Assembly: GCA_008501765.1 (NCBI GenBank)
Contig: QQUE01000019.1
Location: 1 to 64,000 of the forward strand
Length of the DNA stretch: 64,000 nucleotides
Origin: Calditrichota bacterium
GTDB lineage: Bacteria > Zhuqueibacterota > Zhuqueibacteria > Zhuqueibacterales > Geothermadaptataceae
Direction: 5' to 3'
This document shows positions 20,989 to 23,966 of this stretch, in pieces. A program made the translations under genes and the position numbers. Every line of letters starts with the position of its first letter. Position 1 is the first letter of the stretch. The notes below the pieces were generated by a model that did no database searches, had not been told where the DNA came from, and saw only the letters and a program-made list of their open reading frames with translations.

Positions 20989-23796
20989 ATGCCTGCAAAA
21001 AGGACCTTTCTTACCACAGTTTTTTTAGGATTGTGCATAATTATTTTTTGCACAATTCCTTCTTTGGCACAGCAGGATTCTTCTGCTATGAAACCCCCTG
21101 TTTCTAAAATGGAAAACAAAATACAAATCTTTTCGGCTACTTTCACGGTCAAAGAGATCGGCTTGATAATTTCTGCACTCATTGCCATTTGGGTGGCTGT
21201 TTTTTTTGTCCGACGCGCCTACAAAACACAGATAGCCAAGAATCGGGCAGACAAGGATTTTGCAGAAGAACAAACAACCATTGAAACGGCTTCGGCAAAA
21301 GAAATTTACCAAAGTTACCTGCGCACTGAACATGGCTTCATCCGCATCATGGGCGATCCCAATTTGAGCAGTCAGGCGGTTGAATTGCTTAAAGTATTTG
21401 TACAATTGGAAATTTGTTGGATGAAGAACCATGATGAACTGAAAATGCACATGATTAAATCGAGTGAGAATAAGAGTGAAACCCACCCACTGGATTTCAT
21501 TCACGATATATTTAAGAAAAAAAATCCGCACGATCGTCGCTTGCTTATCATTGGTGATCCGGGCTCGGGGAAATCGACGCTGATGAAATACCTCACTATG
21601 GCATGTCTTAAAGGGGAACATAAACGCCTGGGTTATTCTAAACCGGTGATGCCCTTGTTTCTTGTTCTTCGCAGCTTGCAACCCGATAAAAATTTACCGG
21701 AAAACTTTGAAGCATACGGGCATTCCCGACAGGATAAACTCACAGCTGGTGTTTTCAGACAGTGGCTCGATAAAGAAAACACGCTTGTGCTTTTAGATGG
21801 CCTCGATGAAATAAGTGACCGTGAACGCCGACAGCAAGCTTGCGAATGGATTGACCGGGAATGCAAAAGCTATCCCACGACCCGTTTTATAATCACTACA
21901 CGGCCGACGGGCTATCGTAAAATAGACAACATCGAACTTGAACCCGGTTATGCTGGTGCAGAGGTAAAATCATTTTCTCCGAAGCAAAGGAAAAAATTTC
22001 TTGAAAACTGGTTTGAAGCGATTTATTCGCACAAACCGGAAAAAGTCGCAATGAAAGTGCAAGGCATCGTTGATTATCTCAATGCGCCGGGCAACGAATC
22101 TCTTGCTGAGCTGGCTTCGGTACCCATCATTTTGCAAGTTATGGCCATTATATGGGATAAAACCGAATTTTTGCCGGAAACTCGCAGCCAGCTCTACAAT
22201 GCGGCGCTTGACCATTTGCTCAGTTATAGACCGAGGCGCAAGAATTTGAATACTAATTTATCCAAAGAAGACTGCAGAAAAATTATTGAACCAGTGGCGC
22301 TGCAGATGCAACAGGAGCGCAAAGATGTGCTGCCAAAAGAAGGCGACGAAGGCATGCACATGCGTGTGCAGCACGAAATTGATGGCATTGATGATAGCCA
22401 GACCGGTGAAGATTTTTGCCTATGGCTACAGGATGTCCCGGGGCTCATTACCGAATATGAAAACAATGCTTATATTTTCCGACATAAAAGTTTTCGCGAA
22501 TATTTTGCTGCGGTGCAGTGGAACAAGATTTTGTACAAACCTGGCGAAATAGAAAAACTTGTGGCCTGCTTTATTGATGATGACGGCTGGCAGGATGATA
22601 TGATTCGTTTTCTATTTGAGACGTGCGACGGAGATATTTTTGATGAATTTATACGTGTTTTTTTTCAGAACAAAAAATCTCATAAGCTGGACAAATTAAA
22701 ACAGGATGTGCTTTGGCAGCTCATTAGAGAAGCCAAACAAACGAAAACAGATGCTTTGCAAGAATGTTTGCAAAATCCCAACCTGAGCGCCAAACAACAG
22801 CAATTTCTTATTCTGTGTATTCGCGAATTGAAAAACAAAAAGATTGTGCTGCCAGCGTTACAAAAATATGTACAAGCCCCGCATGCTGACAAAGATGCCC
22901 TGGTAACCGCGCGGGTAATGCTGCCGCAGGAAACAACCCGTTTTTTTTCCCCTACTCTTTGGCAGGAAAAACCGGAGGAGTTCATTTGTGTTGAAGAAAA
23001 TGCTGCAGAATACAATCTTATTCCCGGTGGTAAATTTAACTATTCTGTCTCCCAAAAAGAAGAAACCGTACCTGATACTTACTTTGCCCGCTACCCGCTC
23101 ACATTTAGTAAATACCGCAGGTTCATTCGGTTCCTGCAACAGCAACCATTAGAAGGCGAAAAGCCCTGGCACAAGAAATTGCCTGTCGACAGTTTTGTTG
23201 AAAACTTTTTGCTTTATGCAAAAAAAGAAAAGTGGGAGATAGAATATGTTGGTGAAAATCGTGATTCTATGGTTGAAAATTTTATCTCTTTTTATGACAA
23301 CGATAAAAAATGGAATAGCGATGAACAGCCGGTGGTTGGTGTGAGCTGGTATGCGGCCTGCGCTTATTGCTACTGGCTCTCTCTATTGACAGGCAATGAT
23401 CCGGCAGGGATAGGCGCTCGATTTCGTTTGCCAACTGAAATTGAATGGGAATGGGCGGCTGCCGGCAGAACAAAAAATGGTGCTATGCGAATCTATCCCT
23501 GGGGCGATGAGAGCAGTGACCTTGAAAACCGGGCAAATTTTGGTGAAAATGTTGGTAAAACCACACCGGTTGGCACTTATCCCGGAGGTGCAACACCAGA
23601 GGGCTTGCTCGATATGGCGGGCAATGTCTGGGAATGGCAGGAGAACTGGTATGATGATGATAAAGATGTCCGCGCGTTGCGCGGCGGTTCGTGGAACAAT
23701 CTCTCTGTTAGTCTCCGATGCTCTGTGCGTGTCATCAATTTTCCACGCGATCGGCTCAACTACTTCGGTTTTCGTGTTGTTTTCTGCCAGTCATAA
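20989..23796 (+). CDS. Membrane-anchored NACHT NTPase with C-terminal C-type-lectin/FGE domain (probable DGR target)
   Basis: A 935-residue STAND protein. An N-terminal signal-like segment and a membrane helix (about 53-76) precede a NACHT domain with Walker A GDPGSGKST near residue 189 and Walker B 'LVLLDGLDE' near 268, then a helical region. From about residue 675 an FGE/C-type-lectin domain follows ('PGGKFNYSVSQKEE', 'RLPTEIEWEWAAAG', 'DMAGNVWEW', 'RGGSWNN...GFRVV'). The first of the two catalytic FGE cysteines is absent, so it is a ligand-binding fold, not an enzyme. The final ~25 codons carry the codon pattern of a retroelement-diversified variable region, and a broken avd gene follows. 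ATG 20989 is preceded by AAAGGAAAG. Such NACHT-lectin proteins are predicted conflict or self-recognition sensors; the trigger is unknown. Confidence 0.9.
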   Translation: MPAKRTFLTTVFLGLCIIIFCTIPSLAQQDSSAMKPPVSKMENKIQIFSATFTVKEIGLIISALIAIWVAVFFVRRAYKTQIAKNRADKDFAEEQTTIETASAKEIYQSYLRTEHGFIRIMGDPNLSSQAVELLKVFVQLEICWMKNHDELKMHMIKSSENKSETHPLDFIHDIFKKKNPHDRRLLIIGDPGSGKSTLMKYLTMACLKGEHKRLGYSKPVMPLFLVLRSLQPDKNLPENFEAYGHSRQDKLTAGVFRQWLDKENTLVLLDGLDEISDRERRQQACEWIDRECKSYPTTRFIITTRPTGYRKIDNIELEPGYAGAEVKSFSPKQRKKFLENWFEAIYSHKPEKVAMKVQGIVDYLNAPGNESLAELASVPIILQVMAIIWDKTEFLPETRSQLYNAALDHLLSYRPRRKNLNTNLSKEDCRKIIEPVALQMQQERKDVLPKEGDEGMHMRVQHEIDGIDDSQTGEDFCLWLQDVPGLITEYENNAYIFRHKSFREYFAAVQWNKILYKPGEIEKLVACFIDDDGWQDDMIRFLFETCDGDIFDEFIRVFFQNKKSHKLDKLKQDVLWQLIREAKQTKTDALQECLQNPNLSAKQQQFLILCIRELKNKKIVLPALQKYVQAPHADKDALVTARVMLPQETTRFFSPTLWQEKPEEFICVEENAAEYNLIPGGKFNYSVSQKEETVPDTYFARYPLTFSKYRRFIRFLQQQPLEGEKPWHKKLPVDSFVENFLLYAKKEKWEIEYVGENRDSMVENFISFYDNDKKWNSDEQPVVGVSWYAACAYCYWLSLLTGNDPAGIGARFRLPTEIEWEWAAAGRTKNGAMRIYPWGDESSDLENRANFGENVGKTTPVGTYPGGATPEGLLDMAGNVWEWQENWYDDDKDVRALRGGSWNNLSVSLRCSVRVINFPRDRLNYFGFRVVFCQS
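23695..23766 (+). other. Putative DGR variable region (VR) of the NACHT-lectin protein
   Basis: Between the conserved RGGSW and GFRV blocks lie 24 codons, 20 of which end in C or T. The four exceptions are CGA, GTG, CCA and CGG, the fixed scaffold residues R, V, P and R. This is what is left when AAY codons of a template repeat are changed at their adenines by a DGR reverse transcriptase. No template repeat or reverse transcriptase was found in the window. Confidence 0.6.
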
Positions 23797-23846
23797 TCTT
23801 TTGCACCGCTGAATCCCTGTTTGCTGAAACTCTGGAAAGAAAAACT

Positions 23847-23966
23847 ATGGTAAAAGAGAATCTTGTTATGATCAAGAAGGCGTATGAGTTTTCCAAGTAG
23901 TTGCTGAACCACACGGGTAAATTCCCGAAGAGCCACTGCTTTTCGGTTGCGGTCAAATTGCAATGC
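23847..23966 (+). pseudogene. avd: avd (DGR accessory variability determinant), broken remnant
   Basis: The frame from ATG 23847 reads MVKENLVMIKKAYEFSK, then TAG at 23898-23900, then LLNHTGKFPKSHCFSVAVKLQ, after which the REP/RAYT element begins. Avd-type four-helix-bundle proteins of DGRs have the pattern 'ENL..M.K.Y......WL....KFP..H.F....' ; replacing the TAG by TGG restores the expected Trp. About 38 of ~115 codons remain. Both the nonsense codon and the truncation show that the gene is dead. Its place directly behind a VR-carrying gene is the normal DGR order. Confidence 0.75.

Follow-up and report, generated by a model that had tools for sequence, protein, structure and literature searches.

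Do positions 20,989 to 23,966 hold the remains of a diversity-generating retroelement (DGR), and what has become of the receptor that it served? The locus lies in a 64,000 nt stretch of a Calditrichota bacterium genome (contig QQUE01000019.1), which we call the window. An earlier note, made from the letters alone, had proposed such a remnant, attached to a NACHT-lectin sensor. Our results agree with this proposal: we consider that the locus is a fossil DGR, with a probability of about 0.92. The features on which the argument is built are collected in Table 1.

Table 1. Features of the DGR remnant and its surroundings, in window coordinates (VR, variable region; TR, template repeat)
Feature	Position	Strand	Evidence
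Third REP-like palindrome, upstream of target gene	20912..20940	+	
NACHT-FGE target gene (DGR target)	20989..23796	+	Pfam PF05729 and PF03781
VR with adenine-mutagenesis scar	23695..23766	+	Third positions; TRs of 5 relatives; entropy of 14 VRs
Constant GFRVV..QS end of VR domain	23767..23793	+	GFRV invariant in homologues compared
Post-VR CTG repeat of ~8 nt, four CTGs at steps 8, 7, 8	23809..23836	+	Common to relatives' VRs
avd remnant of 39 initial codons; TAG in frame at 23898-23900 (Trp in intact Avd)	23847..23963	+	NF033474; L059 Avd
REP-like palindrome at avd break	23968..23996	+	
REP-associated tyrosine transposase (RAYT)	24021..24581	+	NF047646, PF01797
Second REP-like palindrome, far side of RAYT	24593..24621	+	

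The target gene and its variable region

The target gene is open throughout and codes for a 935 aa protein. It contains a NACHT NTPase (aa 183-344, Pfam PF05729, E=1.9e-16) and a C-terminal FGE-sulfatase / C-type-lectin (CLec) domain (aa 678-931, Pfam PF03781, E=1.1e-34). Judged by eye, the N-terminus shows a signal peptide and then a single TM segment, behind which there are positive residues, and the same inspection finds this hydrophobic layout in most full-length relatives. Treponema denticola TvpA (PDB 2y3c) has a homologous FGE/CLec domain with a C-terminal VR (E=5e-8). This match and PF03781 predict a CLec/FGE domain with a C-terminal VR in the target. To our knowledge, TvpA has no NACHT domain, unlike the target.

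The protein is likely to be a NACHT sensor of the inner membrane, with an FGE domain in the cytoplasm that would bind a foreign ligand. By homology, binding would cause the NACHT domains to oligomerise and signal through the N-terminal membrane segment. The NACHT NTPase by which bNACHT antiphage proteins are recognised is present (PF05729). A PADLOC search of the target matched no curated antiphage family, and NF058535 EruA gives 30 bits, far under its cut-off of 1000. Two homologues, L101 and L103, whose records are titled Chlorobiales/Chlorobiaceae, differ at the N-terminus (KILIASPSDVQEERD... or a similar sequence), which suggests swapped N-terminal modules.

This kind of system is already known: both NACHT-lectin DGR targets and decay of DGRs by mobile elements have been published, and here the system is found in a decayed state. 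NACHT-CLec DGR targets have been described as putative antigen sensors (PMC10907252). The role in conflict systems that the earlier note mentioned for NACHT proteins with DGR-diversified ends is likewise a published proposal. Our target resembles the NACHT/STAND proteins with CLec (FGE) domains which are DGR targets in multicellular bacteria, for example DGR 3 of Thiohalocapsa PB-PSB1 (PMC10907252): a central NACHT, a C-terminal CLec diversified by the DGR and an N-terminal extension without known effector.

The VR ends in the pattern expected from mutagenesis of adenines. The count given in the earlier note, 20 of 24 codons with C or T in third position, was confirmed; it is the maximum of any 24-codon window in the gene, where the mean is 12.8. 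The four exceptions (CGA, GTG, CCA and CGG) had been attributed solely to scaffold Arg, Val and Pro codons. Two of them may be something other than pure scaffold: CGG is opposite AGG, with a mutable A, in 4 of the 5 relatives' templates, and GTG is opposite GAG in 2 of the 5.

The window's own TR is gone, and the scar was assessed by aligning the VR with the TRs of five relatives. All 13 codons with AAY in most of these templates end in C or T in the window VR (probability ~3e-4 given the gene background), and in codon positions 1-2, among sites having a template consensus, the VR differs at 16 of 28 template-A sites vs 3 of 36 other sites (Fisher test, p=2.7e-5). Both values serve as guides, since sites are treated as independent and the templates are heterologous. 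Strong conservation of the VR residues in homologues would have told against a DGR. In 14 homologous VRs, selected for gap-free alignment, the scaffold (R, GG, W, L, R, P, GFRV) is invariant, while template-N positions are hypervariable, with entropies of 2.3-3.2 bits. At the level of sequence, these comparisons show that the VR of the target is of DGR origin.

The avd remnant and the missing machinery

A frame resembling avd, restored by reading a TAG as Trp, had been proposed 80 bp downstream of the VR. Its ATG is at 23847, 50 bp past the target TAA and 80 bp past the VR end, so avd adjoins the target, though it is truncated and has a stop codon. Translated with TAG as Trp, the remnant matches NCBIfam NF033474 (DivGenRetAVD) with E=7.7e-5, over positions 2-33 of the 104 in the profile, as the proposal required. 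The score is well under the full-length cut-off of 80 bits, as one third of Avd would lead one to expect. Its residues 1-39 share 27 identities (69%) with the intact Avd of a relative (L059), which has Trp at the TAG site.

The genome to which the window belongs is 98.9% complete (21 contigs, 5.9 Mb). It contains no DGR reverse transcriptase (RT) that we could find: the single RVT_1 match is a group II-type RT, and the DGR RT of relatives used as query gives no match at E<=1e-15. The motif GxxxSQ is typical of DGR RTs (PMC3521204), and the relatives' RT carries IGNLTSQ and YVDD. The lone genomic RT was rejected as the lost DGR RT: its QGSPLSP motif and its match to TIGR04416 are of group II type. 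A TR was found neither by BLAST of the genome with the VR, nor by a genome-wide search with a 'same base or A' pattern (up to 3 mismatches), nor by searching the genome with a relative's TR. Locus L006, an ordinary FGE paralogue, was rejected as TR, and the remaining BLAST matches are short chance matches. The two marks of an active DGR, a DGR-type RT and an A-rich TR, are therefore missing from these genome-wide searches, as the earlier note had reported for the locus. As a separate observation, L003 (G000:C3; 2569-4133 and 10418-13221) has a group II-type RT gene and then a 112-bp sequence present in 14 tandem copies; further along there is a CRISPR-like array with the repeat GGCCACACCGGCAGGAAAGCACGTAGTGCATTGAAAC.

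Many homologues were found when 60 related genomes were searched with the target protein. The order target-avd-TR-RT is present at two loci in G034 (L050 and L059) and in G031 (L060, whose target is cut by the contig start). The homologous locus thus has RT and TR in relatives, where their absence would have weakened the proposal, and the order of target, VR and avd described for the window is the normal one. Within the repeat, the VR and TR of intact relatives differ only at template A; the few non-A mismatches are found where the windows compared overrun the repeat edges. More distant NACHT-FGE targets (L093 and L094, fetched via their RT) also adjoin avd and RT.

Partial decay recurs among these relatives. 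We have compared 16 loci, the window and fifteen fetched target loci (L050-L064). A complete cassette is found in 3 of the 16 (L050, L059 and L060), which is not a frequency estimate, as some contigs end shortly after the target and the more distant targets L093 and L094 have avd and RT beside them too. L054 (G009) keeps target, avd and TR with no local RT, and its VR and TR have 19 mismatches, 0 of them non-A. L052 (G047) retains avd together with a stub of the TR and a fragment of the RT. In L058 (G047) and L064 (G010), avd is complete or nearly so, with no TR or RT. A truncated avd is found in L053 (G007), L056 (G019), L057 (G037) and the window. No avd was found in L051 (G014), L055 (G010), L061 (G013), L062 (G024) and L063 (G008).

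These data bear on the possibility that the FGE domain is an ordinary paralogue which was never diversified, its pyrimidine-rich end and the avd-like frame being due to chance. The RGGSW...GFR scaffold is indeed also found in FGE domains without DGRs, such as L006 in the same genome. Nevertheless, 69% Avd homology over 39 aa directly downstream, the bias at A sites (p=3e-5) and the complete DGR cassettes of relatives with the same architecture make coincidence extremely improbable.

A fossil DGR is the reading that we prefer. The ancestral order would have been that of relatives today: a NACHT-FGE target with its VR, avd, TR and RT. RT and Avd would have made cDNA from the A-rich TR, putting in random bases at adenines; this cDNA would then have taken the place of the VR, so that the ligand face of the lectin-like domain varied. 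The VR differs at adenines from the TRs of relatives, and L050, L059 and L060 provide homologous loci with a complete cassette. The receptor is probably frozen in one variant, presumably the last one made, because RT and TR are absent from a 98.9% complete genome. The closest relative of the target protein has 43% aa identity, and named relatives only 37-38%. It has been suggested earlier that a VR may become fixed after its protein has adapted well (PMC3521204).

Could an RT and a TR, located on a plasmid or in sequence missing from the assembly, still diversify the VR in trans? G007, G009 and G010 have target loci without RT and a DGR RT elsewhere in the genome, and ~1% is missing from our assembly. 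On the other hand, neither DGR RT nor TR was found in the 5.9 Mb searched, avd is broken twice (stop and truncation), and further Avd-model matches in the genome are weak, far below the cut-off. We consider diversification in trans very unlikely, and keep to a fossil DGR with a receptor that probably no longer varies.

The genus of the window offers some additional observations. In G001, the receptor is not found between the homologues of the flanking genes: those of window genes 19548-20702 and 33119-34219 are ~1.7 kb apart (L112), while in the window 12.4 kb (20703-33118), receptor included, lie between them. Dating the locus by conserved synteny was set aside on these grounds. Contig C96 of G001 contains a different DGR (L091, 9423-10602), with a stop in the RT and another in the VR frame; 12 bases differ between its VR and template, 1 of them non-A. 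It looks dead too, barring assembly error.

A CTG repeat after the variable region

Most VRs are followed, after GFRV, by a (T)CTG repeat of ~8 nt, such as GATACTCTGAAACTCTGACCATCTGTTACTCTGA; L022, L025-L027, L029, L030, L042, L047 and other loci have it. A chain of at least 3 CTGs at steps of 7-9 nt is present in 21 of 30 VR-like ends (the non-DGR paralogue L006 is excluded); the others have at most 2 CTGs, three of them being at contig ends. Only 1 of 8 N-rich template-like copies, that of G009, has such a chain. A strict pattern, TCTGN4TCTGN4TCTGN4TCTG, was picked after the loci had been seen, and has 13 distinct sites in the first 60 genomes, 12 of them at a VR or TR end. Another 22 genomes add 4 sites, of which 3 are found at a VR end, including a partial one where the contig stops. 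Overall, 15 of 17 sites in 82 genomes are at VR or TR ends. The strict pattern misses the window copy, which has degenerated to GCTG, CCTG, GCTG, TCTG.

This repeat is a candidate element for recognition of the VR or target. The DGR of phage BPP-1 has Avd, a TR, an IMH and a hairpin (PMC3240598). Our system resembles it in its Avd, in adenine mutagenesis and in having a sequence element that follows the VR. Unlike BPP-1, the element in this lineage is the CTG repeat: a DGR-type hairpin after the window VR is not supported (z=0.32), and no stable hairpin is found in the window. We found no earlier description of the repeat in a limited set of open-access papers; it is possibly new. It might serve as a search tag for DGR targets which have neither RT nor TR.

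Palindromes, RAYT and the loss of the cassette

The avd homology breaks off next to a mobile element. The palindrome CCTTGCGAAGGTTTNAAACCTTCGCAAGG begins 4 bp past the last Avd-homologous base, and it recurs beyond the RAYT gene, which is thus flanked by palindromes, and upstream of the target. Three of the 6 copies in the whole genome are at the DGR remnant. The RAYT matches NF047646 with E=1.1e-21 and 77.2 bits, slightly short of the curated threshold (80 bits), and also PF01797. The avd of G037, from another family, ends at a similar palindrome, AACTCTGACAGGGTTTCAAACCCTGTCAGAGTT. From palindrome density, the chance of 2 of 6 breaks falling within 10 bp of such palindromes is ~7e-4, an indicative figure, as the rules were set after the cases had been seen.

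Judging from these positions, we favour insertion of a REP/RAYT unit with deletion as the cause of the loss: it would have taken the rest of avd, the TR and the RT. There is also a substantial chance, somewhat short of even, that other deletions removed the cassette and that the palindromes and RAYT came later, with no causal part. Decaying DNA accumulates mobile elements, and G007 and G047 have lost TR and RT without an obvious long palindrome. Against a later arrival are the 4 bp between break and palindrome in the window, the similar case of G037 and the after-the-fact estimate of ~7e-4 given above. The question concerns the cause of decay and leaves the fossil reading as it is.

Compared with known systems, the palindromes flank the RAYT gene as in the REP/RAYT elements of PMC2817692, where more than 100 REPs are given as usual; the 6 in this genome are far fewer. 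MITE-like arrays replace DGR parts at some loci of the Thiohalocapsa PB-PSB1 type (PMC10907252), a likeness to our case. Unlike that type, the mobile element here is a RAYT/REP unit, most of avd is gone and neither TR nor DGR RT was found genome-wide.

The locus illustrates clearly how an immune-like receptor can survive the loss of the machinery that mutated it, and its relatives represent several stages of comparable decay; whether DGR-made variants are retained once the mutator is lost becomes testable. A wider picture, which we regard as doubtful at present, is that this phylum repeatedly uses and then discards DGRs, REP-type elements removing the machinery so that NACHT-lectin receptors become fixed as stable ones, and that its DGR lineage recognises targets via the undescribed ~8-nt CTG repeat rather than the phage hairpin. 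Elsewhere in the window, eight palindromes whose arms measure 12 bp or more are packed within 1.8 kb (43960-45781), none of them matching that of the DGR remnant.
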